This document shows, piece by piece, positions 1 to 18,499 of a stretch of 20,898 nt of DNA. This DNA comes from a virus. The translations under genes and the position numbers were made by a program. The notes under the pieces were generated by a model. That model was not told where the DNA came from, ran no database searches, and saw only the letters and a list, made by a program, of their open reading frames with translations. The stretch spans positions 1-20,898 of IMG/VR virus record IMGVR_UViG_3300018041_000090; one strand, 5' to 3'. Within the stretch, counting starts at the first letter, position 1, and the number at the start of each line of letters is the position of its first letter.

Positions 1-3000
1 ACTGGAGAGGCAATAGCGAGGAGTCTTGGACAGTTGATGGGTTTTATTGGTGTAGTTCCAGGTCTTGGTACAGCTACTAGAGTAGGAACTACTGCAGCTG
101 CTAAAGTATTAACTAGGGTTTCTGGTATTGCTGGTAAACAAGGCGCTGAAAAACTTGGTGCTAGATTAGCTTCTGGTGCTACAAAAATATCGCAAACAGC
201 TCCTGGCGCATTACGTGGCAAGTCTATACCCATGATGGTCGGCAATAAGGCTGTTCAGTATTCTCAAAAATATGTATTGCCAAGCGCTAGAAGCAAAGCA
301 TTAAAACATTTATCGGAAGGCACTGTAGATAAACTTATGGATGCTGGAGAAATGGCTATTCAATTAGGCTTTGCTAGCGCCGCGTCTAGCTGGAGTGGTG
401 GTATAGACCAAATGGTTAAGGGCGGTTTACTTGGCGCTGTTGAAGGTGGCGTGTTTAGAGGTATTACTAACATGACTCAGCTTGGCGGTATGCTTGCTAA
501 AGGCGGTATAGATGCTAAAAGGGCTAACCTTGCAATACGTACCATATCATCTAGTTTATATGGTGGTTTACAAAGTAAATCATTTGGAGATCCTATAGAA
601 CTTCAGATATATCATTACTTGCTTGGTGCTTACTTTGGTCTTACGGACGTTCCATACACACAGCGTAAAGCAATAGAGTTTATTAATAAGTCTAGAAATC
701 TTACTCCAGAAGAAGCGCAAGCGGGACTTACTGAACGCATGATGAAACCAGAAAAGAATCCTGGTTTTGATGAGCTTACTCCAGAAGTTCAACGCGAAGT
801 TACCGAGCAAATGGATATGATGTTTGGCAGGCCTGGTAATGCAGAAGATATATTTGCTAGAGCAATAATGCAGAACTTATCAGAACAAGATAGACAAGAG
901 ATAATACGAATTAAAGCTAACCAAAAGGTTGAAGAGTTTATGGACGAAGGTCTTGACTTTGAAGAAGCCAAGGCTAAAGCTTATGAATTTGTTAAAGACA
1001 AGAATCCGGGCGACTTATTTCTTGAAGAAGATTTTTATGTTAAAAGCGATAATGTTGTAGACGAACAATATAATCCTGCTAAAGGAGCTAACATATCTAA
1101 CTTAGATATTGTCCGTTTATCGTTTGAGGACCATGAAATACCTACTATATTAGCTGATCCACTTACGTCTGTTACAGAGCAAATAGTTCGTGAAAATCCT
1201 AATGTATCTTCTGATGTTGCTATTTATATGGGAAAAAAAATATCAAAAGGTATTAGCGAAAAAAGATTGTTTGAGGAAATAATAAGAGATGTAGATGAAG
1301 GCATTGAAAGCGAGTATGGAGTGCGAGCTAATATTGAAAACAATACGGAGCAAATTAACAAGCTTAAAAAAGCGTATTTAAAGTTAGACCAGTTTAAGCC
1401 TGTAAGACAAATTACTTACAATACTGAGCCAGGTGCAGATGCTTCATATTTTTCTGAGTCAGATGGTATACTGTCAGACAATACTAGATCCATAGAGACT
1501 AAAGGTGTTAGTGCTATACAAGAAATGGCTAATGCTTCTGGTAGAGGAATATTAATTAGCAAAAACTCTGATGACTTATCCGGAGGCGTGGATGATTTGT
1601 TTAAGTCTTTCTTTGATGATTTTGGGGGTATAGATGATGCGAAAGTAGAAGATTATGTTATTAGAGCCGCCCAAGAAGGGCGGCCTGTATTGTTTGGGAA
1701 AAAAGATAGCGGCAATATCTACCATACCGATGGTTGGTTAGACAACGCTATTGATTGGGAAAACAGATTTTCACAAAAAATAGATGAAATAAACGAAGCA
1801 GATCCAGATTTACAAATAACGCCATTAGAAAATCCTATACTACGCAAGTATCAGTACAATAACATGGTGGCACTAGAGCGTTTAAATGGATTGTCTATGG
1901 CTGAAATGGTTCGTGCTAATAAAGACGGCTCAGGTAGTTTTATTACACGACCAGATGAAATTAACAAACGTATGCAGCCATTAGCTGACGGTAATCCTAG
2001 GCTGCAAGATTTATCTAGTGTATTTAGAGGGCCAATAAAAGCATTTATTGTAAAAGGCGCTACTGCTAAAGACGTTGAAGGCATAATAGATGCTGATGAA
2101 GTGGGAAGTGATGGTGTTACGCTTGTAAGTGAAAAATTATTTAATACTATAAAGAATCAAATAGGCGCTACCGAAAAAGACGGTTTTATTAAGTTTACAA
2201 TTGCTGGACAGCAGAATGACAACAACGGTATGCTTATAGGTAAGCTTGGCGCATTTGAAGCTAATGGAAGTGCTGCTAAGTTAATGAAGGAAAATAGTGC
2301 TGATGTATTATTTTTTGATACAGCAGTTAAACAACGTGGACTTAGAAAAGAAACAAACATAGAGTTTACTGCAGATGGCATTAAACCTGTTGAAGGCGAA
2401 ACTATAGAAGCTTTTAATATAGACCCCTCTACTATTAGAGTTAATTTAGGTGTGTATGAAAAAGCTCCTAAAAACATACGCATGGTTAAGCAGTTCATGT
2501 CGCTTCTTACTGACCCTGCAGCTACTCAAAGAATGATAGACAATGTTATTAAACCTTCTATTAATGGCGATGCTGAGTTAAATAAACGTATAAAAAACAA
2601 ACAAATTAGTGACGAAGAAATAGCTAACATTGATATAGACAAGGTTAGCCTAGATGTTATTAACGATGTTTTATTTCAGCCCAATAGCGATAGGGTATAT
2701 GGTAGTAGATTATATAGTAAGGTATGGGAGCACGTATTAAACGAAGTAAGTAAAGAAGATTTTCTTGACCCGTCAGACCAAAAAGGAGAAGCAGGTAAGC
2801 TACAAGACTTATTGCCTGAGTTGTTAATTGATGACTTTAATAGTTCGTCAGATAGAATAATAAAAGTAGTAGCTAAGTATAACGGGCTTACTCCTGATAT
2901 TATGAACAGAGAGCAGATAAGTGCTTATGCTCACGAGGCTCTTAAAAGATACATGTTTAATCGCGCTGTAAGGCCCAAAATAGAAAATAGCGGGTCTACA

Positions 3001-6000
3001 TTCATGTATGGTAACGATGTGTTCTTACAAAGGGATATGGGGCGCCCTGTGGAGAAAGGAACGTATATGTTTGCTAAGAACATGAGGGACTTTAAAATTA
3101 AATGGATTAATAATGAGCAACTATCACTAGGCAAGGCTTGGGATTTATACCAAAAAGAATCTAATGCTTCTGAAAGAAAAAAGATGGAACAAGCTATGGA
3201 GTTTTTTGTAGTTCGCGTTCCACAAGATTCTCCGTCTGGTGCCAGAGTATTAAATTTTGGTGGTTTCACAACCAGAAATGGATACGGCATGCACCTTAAT
3301 GCTTATGATATGAAGTACTTGGGCGGTGCTGATAACGATGGTGATAAAGTACATTTCTATCAAAACTTAGATGGCGACCTTCCAGGGTCGCCTATACGAG
3401 ATGCCGTATTAGCAAACAAAGACCAATGGACAGACGCTGAAGGCAATGTACGTGACGCTAAAGAAGGTGAAGATATTCAGGCTTTTGAAGCGCAGCAATT
3501 AGCTCTTAGAGGAAAAAGAAGTTTAAAAGACTCTTTAGATCCAAGAGAAATATTAAAGACTCATATATACACTACTGATGGTAACAGGTTAGTAGGACCT
3601 ACAGCTAATGCCGGAGCAACATCTACTGGGTTTTTTGCTGGGTTTAATAAAAAAGTTTCTGGCTTTGACACAATTACGTTACCAAAATCTATTCCTGTTC
3701 AAAAAACAGGAAGCTATATATTGCAAATACGAATAAACAATATATCAGACAACCTTGTTGCTTTTAACGAACTTCGTAGAGAAATGATGAACGTAGCAGT
3801 AGATGCTACAGATATGCTTCCTTATAATATTAGGTCGGCTACTAGACTTCTTTCGCAAAAAATATTTAGCAATAAAGATGTAACATTGCTTGATAATAAT
3901 GGCAATGAAATTAATTTTGACCAACTAAGTAGACAAGAGTTTAACGCAGTTAACAGAAATCTTTCTTTTACTAAAGTTGATGGCGTTAGAAATTTAGTAC
4001 GCATTAACGAAACTATTAACGGAAGAAGGTTTAATTACGAAACAAATAAGTCTGAACGAATAGACTTTACACAAGCAATGTCTGAGTTGTCAGGCTTTAG
4101 TAATAAGTACGAAGGTATAGATTTAGGTAATGCTTATTGGAAGGCTGTAACAGAGCTTTCAAGACCTATTAAGCAGAAATGGAGAAATGTAATACAAGAA
4201 ATTACAACAAAGCAAACTGATGATGATGGTAATATATCAGAGTTTCGTGAGCGAGTATCTGTTAATACGCTTGCTAAATATGCTAGATTTAATGTAAATA
4301 AGATATTCGATATTGTTAATGCTTATATGAAAGCAGATATAGATTCTGAGGCAGGCAATGTATTAGCTAGTAGTGGGCAAAAAAGATTGCACATACTAAA
4401 AGAAGGGGTTGATCCATTTCGTACTCTTTCTACTGTCCGTCACGTAGAAGAAGCAGTTGCTAAGCTTTCTAGTTTACTAAATAATGATGTAGCATATAAG
4501 GCGGCCCTAAAAGCCGGCGTTAGTAAACAAAAGCTTAAGGGTATACGCAAGCACGTTGATTCTGTTAAGTACATGCGTACAAAGTTTGTTACTACAGATA
4601 AAACAAGACAATCATACATGCAAAATGTAGCTATAAAAGAAAGTGCATTAGGCTTAAAAAACGTAAAGAATTTAGATAGTTTATTAGAAGTTACTGCTAA
4701 CTACAAAAAAGGTTTAAAAACAAAACAAGAAAAAGATTACTACGATTTTTACATGATAGGCTCGTTATCAGAGCAGCGATTTAACATAGACGATATTGCC
4801 CGCATGGAATATATTGTCCAAAGTAAAGCGGCTAGAACGTATGCCGAAGCTGAGCAAATGATTAACAATGATGCTTATGATAATTATACATATGAGTATT
4901 TAAAAAGCCAGGAATTTATAGAAAAAAATCCATCGCTTGCTAATACTTATAAAGCAGTAGATAGATTATACCAAAATGACGTAGCAAGTGACTTTGGTTT
5001 TTCTGTACCAGCTGTAGATGATGCTAACATAGCTAAATGGTTTGCTGATTACACTGATATTATACAAGCTAAGCCCGACCAAGTTGTTAAAAAAGATATA
5101 TTAGACCCCGCAACAAGCAGGTTTCTTGAGAAATTTTTATTAAATAATATATCAGAAGAAAAAGCAACTGAAATAAAAAACAAATTAGCAAGTGATTTAA
5201 GGGAAAGTGGGTATAGGCAGCCAGGCAGAGAAGGAGAAGTGCCTTCTCTTAATGAGATGTGGAATAAATATAATACAAATAGACCACCTATAAATGCGGA
5301 GGAAGCTAGACGTTCTTCTATTTCTGACGAAGTTATTACAGAAAGATTTACTGATAGCTTGTTTGATAAAATAATTACTGATGCTGAAAAAATAACAGAT
5401 AAAGGACAAGCAGAGTTTGCTTTTGGTAAAATAAATGACACTATATTTAACGAAGGCACAGAGCAAGGAAGAAGAAATCAACAGTTATTAAAAGAACTTA
5501 AAGCGCATTTGTCTAAGCTTCCTTCTAATGTTATAAAAAATATAGAGCGTATTTATGAAGGTTATGTAGGCAAAGAAGTTGGGGTGTCTACTGTACGTGA
5601 CATAGAAAACTTTATTACGTTTTTAAATAGCTTTCATAAGAAAACATTTTTAGAACGCCTTGTAGGAGCAGACCCAGGTACTAAAGTATCTAGATTGTAT
5701 TGGGCATTTTTTCCTGATTCAATAGCGCGGAGACTTACTTCATTTGACCCTAATGTATCTGCTTCTAAAACGATACAAGTACTTACTAAAGATGGATACA
5801 AGTCTAAAGAAGTAGCTGATATTATGTCGCATTATGAGCAAATGAGGTTGTTTTTAAGTGCAGCAGAAGAAAGCAGATCATCGCTTGTAAGTATGGTTAC
5901 TAGCCGTATTAATGATGAGCTTTCTTATCTTAATGATGAGTCTGTTTTAAGAGACAGAGACGACCTTATTGAAGCGGCAATAGCGGTAAAAGAATATAAC

Positions 6001-8574
6001 AATGTTGCTCGTGAGCTTAACATAATTAGAAATCCAGATGCTACTCCAGAGCAAAAAAGAAATGCTGAAAATAATTACGAGCAATACAAAAAGAACTTTG
6101 ATAACGTTAAGGACATTTACGAGAAGCTAAAGGATAAAAAGTATACGATATACATTGACGGAATTAAACAAGAGGTAACAGGTAAAGACCTAATGGGGGA
6201 CTCTGATACGTCTTATATTACTGCTGGCCTTAAAATGAAAGACGGCATGATATCCAAGTCTTTTACAGGCCTTAACAAATTCTTTTTTGATACTGTTATT
6301 AACCCTATAGAAGCTGAACAATTTGTTGTACGCAGACCTGATGGTAGTTTAGATGCATTTGCTACTATGGATAAAATGGATGCTCAATTCCAGGGTACTA
6401 AATTTGAGTCTGAGCGTATAGCTAATATAGGCTTATCTAATTTGTTTGAACTGTCTAAAGAGATTGATTATTACTACAATAACGAGGTTAAAGTTGGTGG
6501 TAGAAAAATGTATATCAATCAAATAGAAGACCCACAACTTCGTGAAAAAAAACTATCTGATATTAGACTAACTGATAGAGGTAGAAAAATTACTGACGGG
6601 CCTCAAGGGCCCGAATACGCCCGTAATTCTGATGGTACATTTGTGCTAAATCCTATGATAGGTAAGATTGATGCAGTAGATTATTTCCCGCATACAAATC
6701 ATTCCGATGCAGCTATAATAGAATGGCAAAAGAAATTTCTTTTTGACAAAGATCTAAACGATGTTACTCCTAACGAAGCACTTGCGTTTAAAAAATGGAC
6801 ATCACAAGGCAAAGTTGAGGATGCGGGTATAGCTAGAGATTTTATTGATGATTTATTTACAAAAAAACGTTTATCGGTTAAGCTCCACGACAGAAACGTA
6901 AGTATAAAAAAGTTTGGCAACCTTAGTGGTCGTTCTGATAAAATTATAGGTGGTTGGGAATTAAGCGCTAAAGCTTATGATCAGTATGCTCAGTCGCTTA
7001 ATAGCGCGTATCATAAGTTATATGGTACTATTATGGCTCAAAAATACAACAGACAGTTTAGAGAGTCTGGAGTAATGGGCGATATTACCGAATCATGGGC
7101 TAAGTTTGGCGATATATACATACAAGATTTTGTTGGTAAACCTACATCATTTGGTCTTGAGTATTTTGCAGACCCTTATCTTAACTTTAAAAAGTCACCG
7201 TATTATGCTCTTAGCGATGATGCCGCTATGGGATACTACAATCGTATAGCTAAGTTTTTTGGCTGGAAGCAATACGCAAACGATGAGATGGGCAAAATGG
7301 ATTTCCAAACTAAGATGAAAGCTTTTACACGGCTTGAGGGTAAGACTCAGTTAATGACGCTATTGACCAACACCACGTCTATGATTAACAACTATGTTGG
7401 TGGTACAGCTCAAACAGCCATTAGCTCAGGTTTGCGTCCGTGGCGATTAGCTGGTAACTGGCAATATTTAAGAGATAATATAGACCCGTCAATTACTAGT
7501 GCCGAAAAAGCTAGAGAAATGGCCAGACAGTTTGGTGCTATTGAGTCTTATATTAGTAGTGAAGTTGGGCCTACAGCTCAATTAAGGTCAACATTTAATA
7601 GGTTTAAAAGAGACCTTGGGGCTCTTTATAGAAGTGGAGATTTTACTAAGCAACAAGTAGTAGAGCTTGCAAAAAAACATGGAATGTCCGATGTAATATC
7701 TGGACCGGGTGCATGGATGATGAGTTCTGTAGAAGTAAGATTACGTACTCGTTCTTTTTGGGCTCATTACTTGCAAGCCAGAGAAATAATGATGGCGGAT
7801 GGCAACTCGTTTAGATGGGATGACCCAATGATAATACAACAAGCATTAAAAGGTGTATGGGGTTCTCAGTTCTTATATAACGCACCTAACAGACCCGCTA
7901 TTGCACGAAGTAATTTAGGTCGTATATTTTCTCGTTTTCAGCTTTGGAGTTGGAACTCGATTAGATTTCGACGTGACATTTATCAAAAAGCTAGAGAGTC
8001 AGGATTTCAAGAAGGAACCCCTGAATACCAACGTTATGTGCGTATGGCTCAAGCTGACGCTTTTATGTTTGCTTTAGCCGCGTTAATGCCTATGAGTATG
8101 TTTGAGTCTATACTTCCTGCTCCTTGGAATTACCTGCAAGACTTTAGTGATTACTTCTTTGGTGATGAAAAAGAAAGAGACAGAGCTTTTTTTGGACAAA
8201 TACCTTATCCATTTAATCCTTTGCAAGTAGCTTTACCACCTTCTGCTAGATATATAACTACTGGTGTTAGTGTTCCTATTGAAATGGCAATAGCGATGTT
8301 AAGTGATAAAGATTTGTCTGATGCTCTTGATTACAGAGTTGTTAGCCTTATGCCTTATGGTATGCTTACTAGAAATATTGTTAGGTCAATAGATACACCA
8401 GCTATGGCTCCGCAGTACCTAACAGGTGTTCACTTTCATACTCTTACTAGGTTAATGAATCAAATGGAAGATAGCGCCACATTAAAAGCTAATGGTCTGT
8501 ATGAGGCTAAAAGCAGGTATGTGGATGAAGAAATACAGAAGCTTTTAGATTATATGCAAAATATTGAACAATAA
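1..8574 (+). CDS. Giant polyvalent phage protein with single-chain RNA polymerase-like double-psi beta-barrels (5' partial)
   Basis: The frame is open to base 1, and the in-frame TTG (34) and ATG (37) sit inside what reads as continuing protein, so the true start is probably outside the window. About 2,850 residues are visible. Numbered from base 34, residues about 690-770 contain SDGVTL, then GKLGAF (K737) and DTAVKQRG (K766). Residues about 1060-1110 contain RVPQDSPSG and GGADNDGDKVHFY, with aspartates 1100, 1102 and 1104. This pair matches the two DPBBs of single-chain RNA polymerases (QDE-1, YonO, crAss-like phage types). The DxDGD triad is the catalytic Mg-binding motif. The N-terminus has glycine-rich hydrophobic stretches. 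The C-terminal 450 residues have helical and proline-rich hydrophobic segments like those of large polyvalent phage proteins. I infer a virion-packaged, possibly injected polymerase. It could instead be a structural protein with inactive barrels. Confidence 0.65.
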   Translation, partial: TGEAIARSLGQLMGFIGVVPGLGTATRVGTTAAAKVLTRVSGIAGKQGAEKLGARLASGATKISQTAPGALRGKSIPMMVGNKAVQYSQKYVLPSARSKALKHLSEGTVDKLMDAGEMAIQLGFASAASSWSGGIDQMVKGGLLGAVEGGVFRGITNMTQLGGMLAKGGIDAKRANLAIRTISSSLYGGLQSKSFGDPIELQIYHYLLGAYFGLTDVPYTQRKAIEFINKSRNLTPEEAQAGLTERMMKPEKNPGFDELTPEVQREVTEQMDMMFGRPGNAEDIFARAIMQNLSEQDRQEIIRIKANQKVEEFMDEGLDFEEAKAKAYEFVKDKNPGDLFLEEDFYVKSDNVVDEQYNPAKGANISNLDIVRLSFEDHEIPTILADPLTSVTEQIVRENPNVSSDVAIYMGKKISKGISEKRLFEEIIRDVDEGIESEYGVRANIENNTEQINKLKKAYLKLDQFKPVRQITYNTEPGADASYFSESDGILSDNTRSIETKGVSAIQEMANASGRGILISKNSDDLSGGVDDLFKSFFDDFGGIDDAKVEDYVIRAAQEGRPVLFGKKDSGNIYHTDGWLDNAIDWENRFSQKIDEINEADPDLQITPLENPILRKYQYNNMVALERLNGLSMAEMVRANKDGSGSFITRPDEINKRMQPLADGNPRLQDLSSVFRGPIKAFIVKGATAKDVEGIIDADEVGSDGVTLVSEKLFNTIKNQIGATEKDGFIKFTIAGQQNDNNGMLIGKLGAFEANGSAAKLMKENSADVLFFDTAVKQRGLRKETNIEFTADGIKPVEGETIEAFNIDPSTIRVNLGVYEKAPKNIRMVKQFMSLLTDPAATQRMIDNVIKPSINGDAELNKRIKNKQISDEEIANIDIDKVSLDVINDVLFQPNSDRVYGSRLYSKVWEHVLNEVSKEDFLDPSDQKGEAGKLQDLLPELLIDDFNSSSDRIIKVVAKYNGLTPDIMNREQISAYAHEALKRYMFNRAVRPKIENSGSTFMYGNDVFLQRDMGRPVEKGTYMFAKNMRDFKIKWINNEQLSLGKAWDLYQKESNASERKKMEQAMEFFVVRVPQDSPSGARVLNFGGFTTRNGYGMHLNAYDMKYLGGADNDGDKVHFYQNLDGDLPGSPIRDAVLANKDQWTDAEGNVRDAKEGEDIQAFEAQQLALRGKRSLKDSLDPREILKTHIYTTDGNRLVGPTANAGATSTGFFAGFNKKVSGFDTITLPKSIPVQKTGSYILQIRINNISDNLVAFNELRREMMNVAVDATDMLPYNIRSATRLLSQKIFSNKDVTLLDNNGNEINFDQLSRQEFNAVNRNLSFTKVDGVRNLVRINETINGRRFNYETNKSERIDFTQAMSELSGFSNKYEGIDLGNAYWKAVTELSRPIKQKWRNVIQEITTKQTDDDGNISEFRERVSVNTLAKYARFNVNKIFDIVNAYMKADIDSEAGNVLASSGQKRLHILKEGVDPFRTLSTVRHVEEAVAKLSSLLNNDVAYKAALKAGVSKQKLKGIRKHVDSVKYMRTKFVTTDKTRQSYMQNVAIKESALGLKNVKNLDSLLEVTANYKKGLKTKQEKDYYDFYMIGSLSEQRFNIDDIARMEYIVQSKAARTYAEAEQMINNDAYDNYTYEYLKSQEFIEKNPSLANTYKAVDRLYQNDVASDFGFSVPAVDDANIAKWFADYTDIIQAKPDQVVKKDILDPATSRFLEKFLLNNISEEKATEIKNKLASDLRESGYRQPGREGEVPSLNEMWNKYNTNRPPINAEEARRSSISDEVITERFTDSLFDKIITDAEKITDKGQAEFAFGKINDTIFNEGTEQGRRNQQLLKELKAHLSKLPSNVIKNIERIYEGYVGKEVGVSTVRDIENFITFLNSFHKKTFLERLVGADPGTKVSRLYWAFFPDSIARRLTSFDPNVSASKTIQVLTKDGYKSKEVADIMSHYEQMRLFLSAAEESRSSLVSMVTSRINDELSYLNDESVLRDRDDLIEAAIAVKEYNNVARELNIIRNPDATPEQKRNAENNYEQYKKNFDNVKDIYEKLKDKKYTIYIDGIKQEVTGKDLMGDSDTSYITAGLKMKDGMISKSFTGLNKFFFDTVINPIEAEQFVVRRPDGSLDAFATMDKMDAQFQGTKFESERIANIGLSNLFELSKEIDYYYNNEVKVGGRKMYINQIEDPQLREKKLSDIRLTDRGRKITDGPQGPEYARNSDGTFVLNPMIGKIDAVDYFPHTNHSDAAIIEWQKKFLFDKDLNDVTPNEALAFKKWTSQGKVEDAGIARDFIDDLFTKKRLSVKLHDRNVSIKKFGNLSGRSDKIIGGWELSAKAYDQYAQSLNSAYHKLYGTIMAQKYNRQFRESGVMGDITESWAKFGDIYIQDFVGKPTSFGLEYFADPYLNFKKSPYYALSDDAAMGYYNRIAKFFGWKQYANDEMGKMDFQTKMKAFTRLEGKTQLMTLLTNTTSMINNYVGGTAQTAISSGLRPWRLAGNWQYLRDNIDPSITSAEKAREMARQFGAIESYISSEVGPTAQLRSTFNRFKRDLGALYRSGDFTKQQVVELAKKHGMSDVISGPGAWMMSSVEVRLRTRSFWAHYLQAREIMMADGNSFRWDDPMIIQQALKGVWGSQFLYNAPNRPAIARSNLGRIFSRFQLWSWNSIRFRRDIYQKARESGFQEGTPEYQRYVRMAQADAFMFALAALMPMSMFESILPAPWNYLQDFSDYFFGDEKERDRAFFGQIPYPFNPLQVALPPSARYITTGVSVPIEMAIAMLSDKDLSDALDYRVVSLMPYGMLTRNIVRSIDTPAMAPQYLTGVHFHTLTRLMNQMEDSATLKANGLYEAKSRYVDEEIQKLLDYMQNIEQ
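1666..1684 (+). repeat. Perfect GC-rich hairpin inside the giant gene
   Basis: GCCGCCC and GGGCGGC form a 7-bp all-GC stem with loop AAGAA, inside coding sequence that is otherwise AT-rich. No U-tract follows. Confidence 0.45.
3373..3392 (+). repeat. Perfect GC-rich hairpin just after the DNDGD codons
   Basis: GGCGACC and GGTCGCC form a 7-bp stem with a 6-base loop, 28 bases after the catalytic-motif codons of the giant gene. Confidence 0.4.
3692..3712 (+). repeat. Perfect 8-bp hairpin inside the giant gene
   Basis: TTCCTGTT and AACAGGAA pair around a CAAAA loop within coding sequence. It is not followed by a U-tract. Confidence 0.35.
6597..6613 (+). repeat. Perfect GC-rich hairpin inside the giant gene
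   Basis: CGGGCC and GGCCCG form a 6-bp all-GC stem with loop TCAAG, across the codons for a GPQGP segment. Confidence 0.4.
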
Positions 8575-8636: not shown

Positions 8637-9527
8637 ATGAATTTACATATTGAGGAGCTCTCTGAAAACGTACATGCGTTTGAGTATAGTAATTGTAGAA
8701 CAGGAGACATAGTACCTACTCTTTTTTGTTCTGATATTCACTTAGATAGCATAGGATGTAAACGAAAGATTCTAAAGCAACATTTTGATGAAATTAAAAA
8801 AGCTAATGGATTAATTTTTATCTTTGGTGATTTGCTTGATGTAATGGGTAGCTATGGTGACCGCAGATTACAACGTGAAGATATAGACCCACAATTCATC
8901 CAACACGGGCGTACTTACCTTGATTTGGTATGTGAGTATACCATAGAGTTTTTAAAGCCTTACGCGCAAAATATAGCGCTTATATCGTATGGTAACCATG
9001 AGAAAACGATAAACAAATTTCACAACCACGACATATTACGTTCTATTGTATGGACGCTAAATCTTGAAGATAAAGTAAACATACAATTAGGCGCGTACTC
9101 TGGTTGGGTATTTCTTCGTATGCAAAAACCTAGTGGAACCGGTGTAGGGTGCAATATACATTATCATCATGGATTTGGAGGCAATGCTAAACGTTCTAAA
9201 GGTATGCTTGATGTACAGATTGAAGCAATGAAATATCCTGACGCGCATATACTAGTTCGTGGGCACACGCATCAAAAATGGTACGATCCAAGTACCGCGC
9301 GAATGCGAGTAACACGAAGTGGCAGAATTTATAAAGATAAAATTAAATACATACAATCAGGTTCGTATGTAGATGGAATAGGCACTGGAAGATCAGGATG
9401 GCCAGTAGAAAAAAACTTTAACCCTACTGATATTGGTGGGTGGTTTGTTGACTTTAAATTTACGATATCTGATAGTACCCCTAAGATAATTACTCAGATA
9501 ATAGAAACGCCTGTAGATACGTTTTAA
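8637..9527 (+). CDS. Calcineurin-like metallophosphoesterase
   Basis: This 296-aa protein has the full set of calcineurin-like phosphoesterase motifs in order: SDIHLD (D33, H35), FGDLLD (G64, D65), YGNHE (N120, H121), HYHHG (H175-H178) and RGHTH (H210, H212). These residues bind two metal ions and catalyse phosphodiester or phosphomonoester hydrolysis. The overall pattern is like stand-alone phage enzymes and the Mre11/SbcD nuclease domain, but no SbcC-type partner is in the window. The substrate is unknown; nucleic acid processing is an inference. It is the last plus-strand gene, and its stop overlaps the stop of the convergent minus-strand gene by 3-4 bases, so the two transcription units collide with no spacer. 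Confidence 0.9.
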   Translation: MNLHIEELSENVHAFEYSNCRTGDIVPTLFCSDIHLDSIGCKRKILKQHFDEIKKANGLIFIFGDLLDVMGSYGDRRLQREDIDPQFIQHGRTYLDLVCEYTIEFLKPYAQNIALISYGNHEKTINKFHNHDILRSIVWTLNLEDKVNIQLGAYSGWVFLRMQKPSGTGVGCNIHYHHGFGGNAKRSKGMLDVQIEAMKYPDAHILVRGHTHQKWYDPSTARMRVTRSGRIYKDKIKYIQSGSYVDGIGTGRSGWPVEKNFNPTDIGGWFVDFKFTISDSTPKIITQIIETPVDTF

Positions 9528-13326: not shown

Positions 13327-14115
13327 TTATTCTTCTTTTAGTGTTGTTGTATTATTATTAATAGTTCGTAATGACCATGATTTGCCATTACCTGTGTCTC
13401 CTAAAATTAATATCTTAGGATTGTGTATACCATGAGCTTTGTATGTATTTAATATATACGATAAGTCTTGTGGTATTATGCTAGGCATGTGACCGCCTCT
13501 GTTTTTAGCATAGATGTAACGGTTGTCTGCTGTTACTATCCAGCTAAATGTTTTGCTTTTGTTAGATGAGTCTTTTTCTACTTTAGAGTAGGCAATAACG
13601 TCAAAGTATCTACCACAAGCTTCTGTGATACTACCTTTTAAGTCTGGCACTTCTATAGGCCTACCATACTCGTCATCTTTACGCTTAACGTGACCTGTAA
13701 CAATAACAGGGAAGTTACACTTAGAAAACATATTAATTAGCTTTTCCATAGTGTCTCCATAAAGACCCCATGACCGCATGTCCATTGTTTCTAGCTTAGC
13801 TTCTTTAGTGATTGATGCACGTTCTTGGCTACCTAACATAGTGATAGTGTCAAGTATCAGCATGTTAACACCTGCTTTTTTAAACTTGTTGTTAAAATCT
13901 ATAGTAACCGTTTCACCTAAATCGCCTAGCAATGGATGTTGCTCTACAGATTTAGTAGCTATTATGATTTCTCCTACAAGTTTTTTGCCAAGCTCCTTAG
14001 CGGAGCCTGACCACGGCACAGCAGGAAGACCAAACACTTCTGTTTGCTTATCCTTGCCACCTATTGTTGATAGCGAATGATCTACATCAAACACTAATGC
14101 TTTATAATTACTCAT
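13327..14115 (-). CDS. Circularly permuted Sak4-like RecA-fold ATPase
   Basis: This 262-aa protein contains the elements of a Sak4-like phage recombination ATPase in rotated order. It opens directly with the post-P-loop strand (YKALVFDVDHSLSTIGG, residues 4-20). Next come Walker B MLILDT (85-90, D89), the conserved MDMRSWG helix (111-117), VIVTGHVKRKDDEYGRPIEV (137-156), YFDVIAYSKVE (170-180) and AKNRGGHMPSIIP (203-215). Only then comes Walker A, KILILGDTGNGKS (234-246), with its helix, followed by ten residues to the stop. Sak4 proteins normally begin with Walker A. Sak4 ATPases act with SSB in strand annealing, and the SSB-like gene follows after one base. The start ATG overlaps the upstream stop by 8 bases, so both ends are fixed by neighbours and no separate N-terminal P-loop exists. 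Confidence 0.8.
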   Translation of the reverse strand: MSNYKALVFDVDHSLSTIGGKDKQTEVFGLPAVPWSGSAKELGKKLVGEIIIATKSVEQHPLLGDLGETVTIDFNNKFKKAGVNMLILDTITMLGSQERASITKEAKLETMDMRSWGLYGDTMEKLINMFSKCNFPVIVTGHVKRKDDEYGRPIEVPDLKGSITEACGRYFDVIAYSKVEKDSSNKSKTFSWIVTADNRYIYAKNRGGHMPSIIPQDLSYILNTYKAHGIHNPKILILGDTGNGKSWSLRTINNNTTTLKEE

Positions 14116-14830
14116 ATTGAAATAATTTGAGTGTTTCTTGTTCTAATTTAACACCCGTTAAGTATTCGTATATATCATCAACTTCAATGATATTTATGTT
14201 TTTTTGTGATAAAACATTGCCAAAAAACCCCAAAGGTAAATCAACTTGTTTTTCTTTTACAATACGAACATCTTCAACTGGTATTTCTAGCTTGCTTACA
14301 TCATCCATTGTTATATAAGGATGAGCTTCTAATGATTCTTTGTCTGGTACAGAGTTAGAAACACTAAAAATATGTAAGGCTGTAATATATACATCATATG
14401 GTATTTCTACAAATGCAGCTAACTTATTATTTTTTACATAAACTCCATATTTTTCATCATGCAACTCTACGTTTAGCATTGAATACTTATGCATAAACGG
14501 CATTGTTACGTATGATATATGAGCATTTACCTTATTTTTTAATGATAATAGACTATTAAAATGAAATTTATAAGGGTAAATTGCCTTTAGTTCATCAAAG
14601 TTATAATTAATACCTATAGGATATTTGTCTTCATTGTTTGACAAATCGCATACTAATATTGATGAATTTATCTCATTATTTAGTGATAAATTTATCCACT
14701 TATGATTGAGTGCCCCTAAAGGCACTCTATCTTTTAGCTCAAAAGCAATGTGTGTTTTTGATGAATGTAAATATTCACTCCAAACATTAGCAATGCGATT
14801 CCAGTATGGAATTAAATCTATTGTCTCCAT
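14108..14830 (-). CDS. Uncharacterised 240-aa protein between the E1-like and Sak4-like genes
   Basis: I do not recognise this family. The protein is soluble-looking, has no membrane segment, no cysteine pair and no nucleotide-binding motif, and alternates short strands with charged loops (for example NAHISYVTMPFMHKYSML and GVYVKNNKLAAFVEIPYDVY). Its C-terminal quarter is acidic and helical, ending YEYLTGVKLEQETLKLFQYE. It starts 15 bases after the E1-like stop, without a clear Shine-Dalgarno site, and its end overlaps the Sak4-like start by 8 bases. By position it could be an adaptor or target-selecting partner of the ubiquitin-like cassette, or a recombination protein. The sequence alone does not decide. 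Confidence 0.6.
   Translation of the reverse strand: METIDLIPYWNRIANVWSEYLHSSKTHIAFELKDRVPLGALNHKWINLSLNNEINSSILVCDLSNNEDKYPIGINYNFDELKAIYPYKFHFNSLLSLKNKVNAHISYVTMPFMHKYSMLNVELHDEKYGVYVKNNKLAAFVEIPYDVYITALHIFSVSNSVPDKESLEAHPYITMDDVSKLEIPVEDVRIVKEKQVDLPLGFFGNVLSQKNINIIEVDDIYEYLTGVKLEQETLKLFQYE
14708..14727 (-). repeat. GC-rich intragenic hairpin with CCTAAA loop
   Basis: GAGTGCC and GGCACTC form a perfect 7-bp stem around the plus-strand loop CCTAAA, inside the 240-aa gene. A second hairpin with the same loop lies at 11808-11825 in the primase gene. Confidence 0.5.
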
Positions 14831-14845
14831 ATTATATTTATCTTA

Positions 14846-15514
14846 TTAGTAATGCGTTGTTTCTAGCTCCATTAGATTAGATATGTATGATATCTTTTCT
14901 GGAACTACATCTCCGCCTAAGTAATTGGTAAGTATACCTACCATAGCACTAGCGGTCATACTACCTATATGTGAGGTAGCCTTATAGGCACATGGAAGCG
15001 TTGTTGCTTCGTTTGGTGGAAACCAGTGCTCTAAATAATTATCATTATCTAAAGTAGCGGCATACACCTGAAACATTTCTGCTCCCATGCGACCATCAAC
15101 AAATAGCTTACGATTATCGCCTTGTGATAACCATTTCTCATACGCTAACTTGCGTACATCCATGTCATCTACGGCGCATAACATTATAGAATAAGCTGGG
15201 CTGTCTTTATCATATTTAACATCGTAAGGAAATACTTGATCAGGACCAAGCATGTCACTAATTAACTCAGAAACCGCTATTGCCTTATTCTTTCTGATGT
15301 CAGATAGCTTACAAAGCTGTCCGCCCATATTGTTGATGTCGTACAAATCCATATCACAAACAACTGGTTTAGCACCAGCTCTGGCTAGAAAATGAACTAA
15401 CCAAGAACCGATGCCTCCAGCGCCTATAACTAATGGAAATGATTCTTGTAAGGGTTCAAACCATTCAGCTTTGCTGAATCTAGCTCTGCCCATTTTTCCT
15501 TTTAGTTTAATCAT
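14846..15514 (-). CDS. ThiF/E1-like ubiquitin-activating (adenylating) enzyme
   Basis: This 222-aa protein has the E1/ThiF/MoeB adenylation core: LVIGAGGIGSWLVHFLARAG (residues 28-47, ATP-binding glycine loop), VVCDMDLYDINNMGGQ (D54, D56, N61, Q66), K77 in IRKNKAIAVSEL, and LCAVDDMDVRK (D116, R121). C175 in LPCAYKATSHIGSMTASA is in the position where E1-like enzymes carry a C-terminal conserved or catalytic cysteine. The family activates the C-terminus of a beta-grasp protein as an acyl-adenylate. It is compact, with no separate ubiquitin-fold or zinc domain visible. Its ATG overlaps the JAMM stop by one base (TAATG). An alternative ATG at 15493, after AAAGGA, would remove seven residues. The order Ubl, E2-like, JAMM, E1 supports the assignment. 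Confidence 0.85.
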   Translation of the reverse strand: MIKLKGKMGRARFSKAEWFEPLQESFPLVIGAGGIGSWLVHFLARAGAKPVVCDMDLYDINNMGGQLCKLSDIRKNKAIAVSELISDMLGPDQVFPYDVKYDKDSPAYSIMLCAVDDMDVRKLAYEKWLSQGDNRKLFVDGRMGAEMFQVYAATLDNDNYLEHWFPPNEATTLPCAYKATSHIGSMTASAMVGILTNYLGGDVVPEKISYISNLMELETTHY

Positions 15515-16923
15515 TAATAATACCCTCTATAGTATTCTATTGGATACGTAAGTCCTGCACGTACAAATGGTAGCCACTCAGCATAGTGTTCTATTACTTC
15601 TTCGGTTAGAAGTATAGGGTCCATACCTTGCATCATTTCTACGTCATGTATTTTGTAGTTTTTACTACGAGTAGATACATGAATTAGCACAGAACAATAC
15701 AGCATTTCTATCATATGAGCAGATTCCCATATGTGCTTTTCTCCTATTTTGTTTATTAAATTAAAAGCATCAACAAACGCATTCATAGCAACTAAATCAG
15801 TATAATCGTCATACACTCTTGATAAATCTACGCTCATAGTGATTTCTTCAGAAGCATATGGTGATTTCCAGGCTTTACCGTTACGTATCAGTCCTGAATA
15901 ATACTCAAGCACATCAGTTCTTGTATCGTCAGTACTTGATGGATTTAATCCATAAGACTTTAGTATAAAACTTAGTAACTCGTGAGTTGCTCTTAATTTG
16001 CTTTCTTTTTGCTTTTCGTTTAATTCTGTTTTAAAGTTAATATCATAAGCATCTTCAAGAAGCGGTTTTATGTCTTCTATTTCTGCTGTATCACTATTAA
16101 CAAGTTTAGGAGAATACATTTCTAACAAATCTTCTGACATAAACTCTACTGGAGTCATATATAAAGATTCATTGTATTGAATAGGAGATGGACTAAATCC
16201 ACCTTTGTTTGTATTACTATTTAAAGTAAAGTAGTTGCCTTTATAAGAATTGTATGTTCCTACAGTTCTATTAGCATCTATTTGCTTTATTCTAGCAACA
16301 AGGAATTCATCTATTTCTGGCTCAAGCGTCTCTACTTTGCAATTAAAGTAGCCCACTTTACTATCTATCTTATATTCACTTTTACTAATGCCTATTTTTA
16401 CATCTGCATCTAGCTTAAAGCTAATTCTGGCAATGTATTCAGCATCATTATTAGTAATTACAGATAAAAAGTAATCGTATTGATTAGCACCATCAATAAG
16501 TTGTTGGACGTCTGTACCTGAAAAGAATGTTTCCATAGAGTTATGTGAATGTATAAAGCCTTGCTTCATATCGTCTAACTCAGGATACTTTTCAATAGCG
16601 TCCAGCACTTCTTCATAGTTTTCAATAGTTGTTGAACCAGCTGTTCCTACATCCATAGGATACAAATAGTTTACATGCACTTGGTAGTTGTTAGGATCCG
16701 ATATTGTTCCTTCTTCGCTATAAAACAATATACCACACCATTCAAGGCCTGGATATTTATTGCAAAGATATCTGTCCAATGCTATTACTTGCGGATGCAA
16801 GGTAATGTTCGGAGTTCCTGACAACGATATTGTGGTAGCTTTGTTTTCTTTCAGCGATATATTTAATTGCTTGCTCGACTGTGTATCTACCGTAGATTTT
16901 GTATGTGTTCTCAATGTGTTCAT
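15514..16923 (-). CDS. JAMM/JAB (MPN+) metallopeptidase, predicted deubiquitinase-like
   Basis: This 469-aa protein has a JAB domain at about residues 37-175. Its strand-helix start (NITLHPQVIALDRYL) is followed by GLEWCGILFYS with catalytic E61, and then FIHSHNSMETFFSGTD. That segment gives a perfect JAMM signature: H125, H127, seven residues, S135, two residues, D138. Zinc-dependent JAMM enzymes cleave isopeptide or C-terminal extensions of ubiquitin-like proteins, so this one may mature or remove the 80-aa partner. The remaining 290 residues are largely helical and unrecognised. The frame overlaps the E2-like gene by 167 bases. The overlap includes real JAB sequence, so the JAMM start must lie inside the upstream gene; ATG 16923 is a guess without a good ribosome binding site. 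Confidence 0.85.
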   Translation of the reverse strand: MNTLRTHTKSTVDTQSSKQLNISLKENKATTISLSGTPNITLHPQVIALDRYLCNKYPGLEWCGILFYSEEGTISDPNNYQVHVNYLYPMDVGTAGSTTIENYEEVLDAIEKYPELDDMKQGFIHSHNSMETFFSGTDVQQLIDGANQYDYFLSVITNNDAEYIARISFKLDADVKIGISKSEYKIDSKVGYFNCKVETLEPEIDEFLVARIKQIDANRTVGTYNSYKGNYFTLNSNTNKGGFSPSPIQYNESLYMTPVEFMSEDLLEMYSPKLVNSDTAEIEDIKPLLEDAYDINFKTELNEKQKESKLRATHELLSFILKSYGLNPSSTDDTRTDVLEYYSGLIRNGKAWKSPYASEEITMSVDLSRVYDDYTDLVAMNAFVDAFNLINKIGEKHIWESAHMIEMLYCSVLIHVSTRSKNYKIHDVEMMQGMDPILLTEEVIEHYAEWLPFVRAGLTYPIEYYRGYY

Positions 16924-18094
16924 ATATGTTAAATATTATGTCTTGTGTTTGTGTTACTGGTTCAGCATTACCTTCATATAGATTTCCATCTATAAAAAAG
17001 CTTAAGCTATTTATGTAGTTAATTGTATAGTCATAGTCTGCTTCATTATTTATACTAGCATAATCTTCTAGCCGGTTATATACGGTTTCAAAATCAAACA
17101 GATCATCTTCATCGTATACTTCTCCGTCTACAAGTACTCTACAGTAAGAACCGCAATCAACTTCTTTTATATCTGTTATGTTTACATTGTTATTAACTTT
17201 ATAAAAGTTTTCAATGTAATTCATAGCGTCAATAAACGAAGTACTGTTATTAATGTATTCTTCTACTATATACTTAAATAGACCTAAGAGTTCTTTGTAT
17301 TTGCTGCTATAAATAATTGCATCAAACCTACTTTCATCTTCTACATAATAATAGATATGACTATTAAACATGAAGTTTATATCATCTATTACGCACTTTA
17401 TAAGATGGTGTATGTATTCAGCTACTTTTTTGTGCCCATCATTTAATGTATTATCATTGTATTCATTTTTAAGGTATTCTAGAAATATGCTTGGAGAACC
17501 GCCCAAATCATATTGACCTAAACTATCTGAAACACAATAATCTTCTCTAAATGAAAGGTAATCATCTTCACATACGTATCTGTATGCATCATTAGAAGAA
17601 TCTTCTGCATTATGTACATTTTCAATGTATACATATGGTCCGCCATCAATACTTTCATGATGAACCATCACATCTAGCAATGTAAAGAAGTCATATAACC
17701 TATCTTCATTCAAATGAATTCTGCTATCATCAAACGCTTTTTTAAGAGTTGTGTCTCCTAAACAAATTGTATGTGATGTTAGCCCTGATACATGAGAATG
17801 AGCGTAGCCTGCTATAATCATGTTTTCATCAGGAGATAAGTTATAAGCACCAATGCTATTGAATCTATTATAAAACACTTGATTATCCTTTACTGCTAAC
17901 GTACCAGTAATTTTTATGACAAAATTCTTTAAGAATAATTCGTCATTATCTTCATTAGATACGCGTAGCTCTGGATAAACAATAGTAATAGTAAACTTTT
18001 TATCATTATTGTAGTCTTTTTCGACTTCATACTTTACATTTGTTTGCTCATAAACAGAGTCAAGTATATTTATTAATGTTTCATGGTTTATCAT
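16757..18094 (-). CDS. Putative E2-like conjugating protein with large helical C-terminal extension
   Basis: This 445-aa protein has a strand-rich N-terminal domain (about residues 30-160): FTITIVYPEL, NFVIKITGTL, then MIIAGYAHSHVSGLTSHTICLGDT, and later VHHESIDGGPYVYIE. H99, H101 and C111 in the HSH...ICLG segment resemble the E2 active-site pattern (HPN...G.ICL), with C111 as the candidate thioester cysteine. The segment does not fit the JAMM spacing. Residues 160-445 are acidic and mostly helical, with no recognised motif. It starts by TAATG overlap with a 58-aa ORF and lies between the Ubl-like and JAMM/E1-like genes, exactly where an E2 is expected. The E2 call is inference from motif plus context; it may instead be a divergent partner protein conserved in such phages. 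Confidence 0.5.
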   Translation of the reverse strand: MINHETLINILDSVYEQTNVKYEVEKDYNNDKKFTITIVYPELRVSNEDNDELFLKNFVIKITGTLAVKDNQVFYNRFNSIGAYNLSPDENMIIAGYAHSHVSGLTSHTICLGDTTLKKAFDDSRIHLNEDRLYDFFTLLDVMVHHESIDGGPYVYIENVHNAEDSSNDAYRYVCEDDYLSFREDYCVSDSLGQYDLGGSPSIFLEYLKNEYNDNTLNDGHKKVAEYIHHLIKCVIDDINFMFNSHIYYYVEDESRFDAIIYSSKYKELLGLFKYIVEEYINNSTSFIDAMNYIENFYKVNNNVNITDIKEVDCGSYCRVLVDGEVYDEDDLFDFETVYNRLEDYASINNEADYDYTINYINSLSFFIDGNLYEGNAEPVTQTQDIIFNIYEHIENTYKIYGRYTVEQAIKYIAERKQSYHNIVVRNSEHYLASASNSIGQISLQ

Positions 18095-18270
18095 TATAAT
18101 GTTTTGTAAGTTATTGTTTCTTTTAGCTTATCTATAGTATCCTGTATAATAGATATTGCTTCTTTGTCAGAAAAAGAAAACCCCAGCTGTCCGCTAGAGT
18201 TCTCTACATTTTCCGTTATCGTCTTTACGACGCTCTCATGCCAACGTTTAATAATATCAAGCTCCTGCAT
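18094..18270 (-). CDS. Small 58-aa protein between Ubl-like and E2-like genes
   Basis: This ORF starts at ATG 18270, inside the last codons of the Ubl-like gene (14-base overlap), and stops with a TAA whose last base begins the E2-like ATG. The protein (MQELDIIKRWHESVVK at the start, SDKEAISIIQDTIDKLKETI near the end) is charged and predicted helical, with no cysteine and no membrane segment. The tight double coupling, and the lack of any other content in this interval, make it a credible real gene. A role as a small cofactor or helical partner of the E2-like protein is inference. Confidence 0.6.
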   Translation of the reverse strand: MQELDIIKRWHESVVKTITENVENSSGQLGFSFSDKEAISIIQDTIDKLKETITYKTL

Positions 18271-18499
18271 CGATCTTCATTGGATAGATGTGCAACTCTA
18301 CTTCATCGCCCCCGTTAATAGGATCGTGCATATTTAACGTTTTGCGACCATCTGTTCTGTTGACAACTTTACAACTAGAAGGAATAACGTCTTCGTTATC
18401 AGTGCCTTCTATTTTGTTGCAAATATCATTTACAGTACTAAACTCTCCGTGTATTGAAAAGCTTCTTCCTGTTGTTTTGTTAATGACTGTTACTATCAT
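18257..18499 (-). CDS. Ubiquitin-like beta-grasp protein (80 aa)
   Basis: The start is ATG 18499, fixed by AAGGAG seven bases upstream; a longer frame from 18544 adds 15 basic residues and lacks such a site. The 80-aa protein follows the beta-grasp order: strand MIVTVINKTTG, strand RSFSIHGE, helix STVNDICNKIEG, strand SCKVVNRTDGRKTL, then INGGDEVELHIYP, the typical fifth strand of ubiquitin-like folds. It ends with the exposed tail MKIDAGA. Ubiquitin-like modifiers normally end in GG after processing; here the final residues are AGA. The length (ubiquitin is 76 aa), the fold pattern and the adjacent E2-like, JAMM and E1-like genes together identify it as the probable modifier. A sulfur-carrier role is a possible alternative. 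Confidence 0.7.
   Translation of the reverse strand: MIVTVINKTTGRSFSIHGEFSTVNDICNKIEGTDNEDVIPSSCKVVNRTDGRKTLNMHDPINGGDEVELHIYPMKIDAGA

Follow-up and report, generated by a model that had tools for sequence, protein, structure and literature searches.

Sets of a ubiquitin-like modifier (Ubl), an activating enzyme (E1), a conjugating enzyme (E2) and a JAMM/JAB peptidase have been described in several bacterial contexts. The PRTRC plasmid operon (ParB-E-C-F-B-A-ThiF) encodes a Ubl (protein C), protein F, an E2-like protein (B), a JAB peptidase (A) and an E1 (ThiF), in that order, and the operons in row 6d of Iyer et al. 2006 (PMC1779556) seem to belong to this class. In type II CBASS, the chemistry of E1, E2 and JAB is provided by Cap2 and Cap3, and Bil/Bub operons combine E1, E2 and JAB with a dedicated Ubl. 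Iyer et al. 2006 also described lambda TAPI, a Ubl with a C-terminal glycine, and TAPK, a JAB-NlpC protein whose JAB domain was predicted to cut after that glycine (PMC1779556). The window analysed here is the whole of IMG/VR virus record IMGVR_UViG_3300018041_000090, 20,898 bp from an uncultured virus. It carries a cassette of Ubl, E2-like, JAMM and E1 genes that is read here, with a probability of roughly 0.7, as a complete phage-encoded system for reversible Ubl conjugation, most likely serving early host takeover or counter-defence. The features of the cassette are as follows.

18257–18499, minus strand: Ubl, an 80-residue predicted ubiquitin-fold modifier precursor (AlphaFold2 model, Foldseek, invariant G79)
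18263–18265, minus strand: codon of Gly79, the predicted mature C-terminus and predicted JAMM processing site, between Gly79 and Ala80 (stand-alone Ubl ends and fusion joint)
16757–18094, minus strand: E2-like protein, 445 residues, with a UBC-like core (about residues 1–165) and a helical C-terminal region
17756–17800, minus strand: E2-like active-site box HSHVSGLTSHTICLG, with candidate catalytic Cys111 at 17762–17764 (invariant C111 and G113)
15514–16923, minus strand: JAMM/MPN+ metallopeptidase, 469 residues, whose start overlaps the E2-like gene (zinc-site residues, Prok-JAB)
14846–15514, minus strand: E1/ThiF-type adenylating enzyme, 222 residues, with candidate catalytic Cys175 at 14990–14992 (Pfam ThiF, phrog_15670, UBA5)

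Read 5′ to 3′ on the minus strand, the open reading frame (ORF) list gives small genes, the Ubl gene, a 58-residue gene, the E2-like gene, JAMM, E1 and a 240-residue gene. A preliminary description of this DNA had proposed four genes in a row, coupled by overlaps. The ORF list contains all four on the minus strand, and adjoining cassette genes overlap or have one base in common, but that description left out the 58-residue gene between Ubl and E2-like. The motifs to which it pointed are also real: the HSH and ICLG-type Cys box of the E2-like protein, the JAMM HxH-x7-SxxD with its upstream Glu, and the GAGGIG of the E1 are invariant in 14 relatives. Judged from alignment, such conservation across 14 diverged relatives is far beyond chance. 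The invariant residues hold across ~20–35% identity in E1, JAMM and E2-like proteins, and the only key residue of the cassette that is not invariant is an E1 arginine, lost family-wide.

The window E1 matches Pfam ThiF (3.7e-14) and phrog_15670 (4.3e-37), and its profile finds UBA5 as the best Protein Data Bank entry (4.6e-12), followed by MccB, Cap2, the SUMO and NEDD8 E1s and BubCD; the ThiF and UBA5 matches uphold its earlier assignment. Residues G31, G33, G34, D54, D56, N62, Q66, K77, D116, R121 and C175 are invariant in the 14 relatives, and C175 in 50 sequences. The protein therefore has the GxGGxG, DxD and Cys of an E1, although the canonical arginine of N-x-x-R-Q is missing. Similarly, the JAMM peptidase carries the JAMM/MPN+ zinc site E...HxH-x7-SxxD as E61 and H125-S-H127-x7-S135-x2-D138. 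All five residues are invariant in 42 sequences and Prok-JAB matches 21 of these 42 members (best 1.1e-6), which together support its identification as a JAMM protein; it resembles CSN5 and Rpn11 weakly.

Group I introns cut the JAMM gene at or beside HxH metal-motif codons (locus L049, 5540–5799, 66 bits). A group I intron in the JAMM gene of Flavobacterium phage Fpv1 (L006, 6024–6269) scores 43 bits, just under the gathering score; the Fpv1 gene is annotated as two hypothetical genes, and split JAMM genes occur in L054 and L035 too.

The AlphaFold2 model of the Ubl, built from 84 sequences (predicted local distance difference test score, pLDDT, 85.7), is a β-grasp with the element order β-β-α-β-β-β. 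Its best Foldseek matches are NEDD8 and ubiquitin (E 3.4e-4, probability 1.0), and VIA-align gives Z 7–9 to ubiquitin, SUMO, MoaD and DIX folds, a Z range that is common according to the tool's own warning. The β-grasp fold suggested earlier for the 80-residue protein is thus recovered by model and by both structure comparisons. The window Ubl ends in ...MKIDAG79-A80, and G79 is invariant in 84 of 84 relatives, as befits a ubiquitin-fold modifier with a C-terminal glycine. The window Ubl found no match in phage records by tblastn, and scans of all Ubl and E2-like members with Pfam and NCBIfam gave no credible family; the Ubl family is visible only via profiles and synteny.

Eukaryotic Ubls lose a C-terminal tail after glycine or are released from ubiquitin-fusion precursors, and eukaryotic ubiquitin is made as fusions to ribosomal proteins. 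About 20 of the phage Ubl genes stop 1–4 residues past the invariant glycine, mostly after one residue (...KIDAG-A in the window, ...KMKAG-A in L004, ...KVKSG-I in L045), and the remaining genes continue past it into an extension of ~80–230 residues. Relatives of the extension that lack the Ubl are free-standing genes directly behind the primase in all 15 of the loci that have them among those carrying rIIA/rIIB instead of the cassette (E 4.5e-13 to 2.7e-23). The initiator methionine of the free-standing protein aligns a few residues past the glycine of the fused forms, and the Ubl-domain profile found no match to these free-standing genes of rII-type loci. In cr106_1 (L009, 3725–4928), an HNH endonuclease gene parts the Ubl from its extension just past the conserved glycine, the Ubl ORF ending in KIKSG-KF; a group I intron was rejected as the explanation, as no Rfam intron was found at the joint. 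Because the extension is free-standing in relatives, starts near the glycine and is split off at the joint by the HNH gene, the Ubl behaves as a detachable module joined at glycine, like ubiquitin–ribosomal protein fusions. The parallel points to the processing site, and JAMM would be the obvious enzyme to process the precursor. The 58-residue gene was also considered as the missing extension of the window Ubl and rejected, as it does not match the extension family.

The E2-like protein has the motifs H99-S-H101 and C111-L-G113. Residues S100, H101, C111 and G113 are invariant in 74 sequences, and H99 is also invariant across the 14 relatives. Its AlphaFold2 core (residues 1–165, mostly pLDDT >90) consists of a helix, four strands, an active-site loop and two helices, as in UBC folds. 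The top Foldseek match is a Cap2 chain, at a weak E of 0.03, and VIA-align puts the match on Cap2 residues 8–153, the E2 region. The VIA-align list comprises mostly E2, UEV or RWD folds, UBE2 among them, at weak Z scores of 4.4–5.8. The earlier E2-like assignment thus draws support from the invariant cysteine, the UBC-like core and the Cap2 match, but the scores are weak and it is the weakest of the four assignments.

Relatives were found by JAMM and alignment-based scans of viral contigs, which gave 160 E1 and 190 JAMM relatives, 80 of each being kept; a viral-contig scan with the window E1 alone found no relatives. By tblastn in 50,697 phage records, E1 was found in 74, JAMM in 74 and, weakly, E2-like in 64. 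The E1 and JAMM matches lie in Steigviridae crAss-like phages and Flavobacterium psychrophilum phages, where the genes stand in the same order. In crAss001, the cassette is gp79-76, of which gp76 is annotated as 'thiamine biosynthesis protein', gp77 as 'metalloprotease' and gp78 and gp79 as 'hypothetical'. Of 171 loci searched with profiles, 153 contain all four genes, and the other 18 are clipped at ends of the contig or fetched stretch. In all 153 the order is Ubl-E2-JAMM-E1 on one strand, so that the genes do co-occur in related phages, and the E2-like and JAMM genes overlap in 146.

The carriers comprise Steigviridae, Flavobacterium phages and many uncultured contigs. Among 84,980 species genomes, matches were confined to two short contigs of metagenome-assembled genomes (MAGs), L171 and L172, from Clostridium and Spirochaetia MAGs. 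L171 (12.3 kb), which carries a crAss-like replication region with all four cassette genes, probably derives from a phage and ended up in a bacterial MAG by binning; L172 (3.7 kb) is known from an E1 match. A host origin of the cassette was rejected on these grounds. Since only these two contigs matched and the larger is crAss-like, the family is virus-specific and practically absent from bacterial genomes.

In gene order and in the similarity of its JAMM and E1 proteins, PRTRC is the closest known operon. Its order of Ubl, E2-like, JAB and E1 is that of the phage cassette. By hhalign, PRTRC ThiF matches the phage E1 at 98.9% (1.4e-17), above Cap2 (97.3%), and protein A matches the phage JAMM at 91.8% (7.2e-7), with a similar HxH-x2-M-x2-FFSGxD. 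Further likenesses are a C-x-G in the E2-like Cys box and a Ubl ending in glycine. The differences are that PRTRC B has PxxN before its cysteine where the phage protein has HSH (hhalign 1.5%, not significant), that PRTRC ThiF keeps the N-x-x-R-Q arginine that the phage E1 lacks, and that the phage Ubl is a precursor or fusion. No ParB, protein E or protein F of PRTRC was recognised in the window or in the annotated crAss-like loci. The phage E1 scores 26.8 and 25 bits against the PRTRC model cut-off of 144.75, the PRTRC_B and PRTRC_C models match no phage member, and no PRTRC model reaches its cut-off. On these two grounds, the cassette is not classed as PRTRC. Because hhalign of the phage E2-like protein and Ubl to PRTRC B and C and to Cap2 is not significant, common descent of these two with the PRTRC parts is not claimed.

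The preliminary description had likened the cassette to type II CBASS and Bil operons. The likeness in E1, E2 and JAB chemistry holds, but neither is the closest operon. The E1 domain of Cap2 resembles the phage E1, as its E2 region resembles the E2-like model. However, Cap2 is a fused E2 and E1 encoded beside a CD-NTase, whereas the phage E2 and E1 are separate genes in every locus and are accompanied by a dedicated Ubl; no CD-NTase or effector was recognised in the window or annotated loci, and Cap3 shows no resemblance to the phage JAMM (hhalign 0.4%). Bil/Bub shares the dedicated Ubl, and the phage parts are likewise separate genes in one operon. Citrobacter BubCD matches the phage E1 profile at 2.4e-5, more weakly than UBA5 or PRTRC, and is, by its name and length, one chain, whereas phage E1 and JAMM come from two genes. 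Bil/Bub lies in defence islands, the phage cassette in lytic-phage replication operons. The cassette is akin to the UFM1/UBA5 and NEDD8/ubiquitin pathways in its E1 and Ubl fold, respectively, but its peptidase is JAMM rather than UFSP or UCH, no E3 ligase was recognised in the phage and sequence identity is very low. The lambda TAPI/TAPK pair shares a Ubl with C-terminal glycine and a JAB, but has a tail-assembly role and lacks E1 and E2.

In crAss001, the cassette lies between the primase and uracil-DNA glycosylase (UDG) genes. The same slot holds rIIA and rIIB in cr116_1 (L192, 10608–14764; PHROG RIIA 7.6e-17, RIIB 5.6e-35) and, in cr108_1 (L193, 9279–16335), ATP-grasp, COOH-NH2 ligase, Peptidase C26, glutamine amidotransferase and amidoligase genes. 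A survey seeded with the primase and not with the cassette covered 44 loci, near-duplicates included, that extend at least 7 kb downstream: 22 carry the full Ubl cassette, 14 rIIA/rIIB, 6 the amidoligase module and 2 none of the three, and two modules never occur together. On a tree of 61 primase sequences, which primase recombination may affect, the module labels need at least 10 changes against a minimum of 2. Furthermore, the close relatives L240 (Ubl) and L232 (rII) have flanking genes of 75–93% protein identity and wholly different modules. On this comparative evidence, the slot (L192, L193 and L194–L271) is a swap locus in which three modules unrelated to one another have replaced each other repeatedly.

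T4 rII enables the phage to overcome lambda RexAB exclusion (PMC9391042), and PMC7824862 counts rIIA as a counter-defence system of phages. Where ATP-grasp and COOH-NH2 ligases are linked, they have been discussed as peptide ligases, and phage ATP-grasp proteins as possible modifiers of host proteins (PMC4431377). Because the cassette is repeatedly exchanged with these modules, it is suggested to serve host takeover or counter-defence. Tentatively, at somewhat less than even odds, the Ubl cassette may be functionally interchangeable with rIIA/rIIB and the peptide-amidoligase cassette, the three being alternative ways to neutralise defence or to seize host proteins early.

The computed folds and families, the invariant residues, the order of the genes, the build of the precursor and the exchange of modules lead to the following inferred route of conjugation, with its catalysis, targets and role. 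The Ubl would be made as a precursor, with a short tail past the invariant glycine (here G79-A80) or fused to the N-terminus of a small phage protein. JAMM would cut after the glycine and expose it, and the E1 would adenylate the glycine carboxylate and pass the Ubl to its own Cys175. From there, the Ubl would move to Cys111 of the E2-like protein and be attached to host or phage proteins, from which JAMM would probably also strip it.

Several points weigh against this interpretation. The canonical E1 arginine of N-x-x-R-Q is a glycine in 115 of 121 scored phage E1s and is retained in the PRTRC and Cap2 sequences examined; judging from sequence, its loss could mean that ATP is used differently or no longer used. 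The E2-like model matches E2 folds weakly (Foldseek E 0.03, Z ~5), no Pfam or NCBIfam E2 model matches any E2-like member and no E3-like gene was recognised. In addition, to read a function from a shared slot is an indirect argument, and the genes around the cassette in the window differ in arrangement from the crAss-like slot.

A sulfur-carrier pathway would have the E1 make a Ubl thiocarboxylate in the style of ThiS, MoaD or Urm1 for modification of nucleotides, DNA or RNA, with the E2-like protein not conjugating. The short, single-domain ThiF-type E1, the terminal glycine of the Ubl and the position among nucleic-acid genes are consistent with such a pathway. It is nevertheless quite improbable given the invariant Cys111-x-Gly and UBC-like core of the E2-like protein, the Foldseek preference of the Ubl for ubiquitin and NEDD8, and the constant presence of JAMM; no rhodanese, cysteine desulfurase or thiolase was recognised in the neighbourhoods. 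A comparably low probability attaches to a role in processing alone, whereby the Ubl would aid the folding or dosage of the small extension protein, JAMM would release that protein, and E1 and E2 would be secondary or vestigial. About 18 lineages, including the window, lack the fusion yet keep all four genes, and E1 and E2, with their invariant cysteines, are as conserved as JAMM; these facts stand against the frequent fusion of the Ubl to a protein that is free-standing elsewhere and the loss of the E1 arginine, which such a role would readily accommodate.

Unlikely, but less so than these two, is that the cassette, instead of tagging targets of its own, sabotages host Ubl immunity by competing with CBASS type II, Bil or PRTRC or by stripping their tags. 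The phage E1 is distantly similar to Cap2 and BubCD, and the JAMM to PRTRC protein A, which fits this idea, as does the exchange with rIIA/rIIB, but stripping would need JAMM alone and not a full set of E1, E2 and Ubl, and the phage JAMM is far diverged from Cap3. Replisome control, in which the Ubl would tag phage replication or recombination proteins as ubiquitin and SUMO do PCNA, has a similarly small chance of being correct. The cassette does lie in a replication/recombination operon beside primase, helicase, RecA-like ATPase, single-stranded DNA-binding protein (SSB) and nuclease genes. Close relatives with the same replication genes carry rIIA/rIIB and no cassette, however, so that the replication machinery appears to be independent of it. 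For this reason, replisome control was rejected as an essential role. The replisome control offered by the preliminary description is also weakened by the occupancy of the slot by rIIA/rIIB or amidoligase genes in relatives, which favours host takeover or counter-defence.

Two further genes adjoin the cassette in the window.

18094–18270, minus strand: 58-residue protein between Ubl and E2-like (ORF list)
14108–14830, minus strand: 240-residue protein directly downstream of E1 (ORF list)

The position of the 58-residue gene is occupied by a 63-residue gene in L001 and a 67-residue gene in L002. A gene similar in size to the 240-residue one (~200–360 residues) usually lies behind E1 in relatives and falls into at least two sequence clusters, found at the +1 position in 33 and 28 of 98 loci. 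In crAss001 it is gp75 (L005, 8696–9508), and it vanishes along with the cassette in the L240/L232 swap; it may be a fifth component of the cassette. Downstream of the 240-residue gene, the window encodes a Sak4-like ATPase, a 222-residue SSB-looking protein without a family match, a primase-helicase, a Gam/Gp157-like protein and RusA. No structural marker gene was recognised in the 20.9-kb record, and the related L001 carries a phrog_38 terminase; the window's link to crAss-like phages is the cassette only. Elsewhere in the window, positions 34–8574 encode a 2846-residue protein without a Pfam or PHROG match at E 1e-3, and positions 8637–9527 a calcineurin-like phosphoesterase resembling phage DNA-repair exonucleases (PF00149 2.4e-6, phrog_7339 2.7e-13).

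A literature search found no report describing the phage cassette, and neither ubiquitin nor ThiF is named in the main text of the crAss001 paper or of Yutin et al. 2021. Bacterial defence operons and plasmids were already known to carry complete Ubl-E1-E2-JAMM sets; here, one is a standard part of an abundant virus group. The group includes the cultured human-gut phages crAss001, DAC15 and PhiCrAssBcn, in which the genes are labelled 'thiamine biosynthesis protein' or 'hypothetical'. The exchange with rIIA/rIIB provides a testable handle on rII-type functions, a question open since Benzer, and the cassette makes the use of ubiquitin-like tagging by viruses amenable to study. Its repeated swapping with rII-type genes, which are known to defeat bacterial defences, suggests that viruses use protein tagging to control the cells that they infect.

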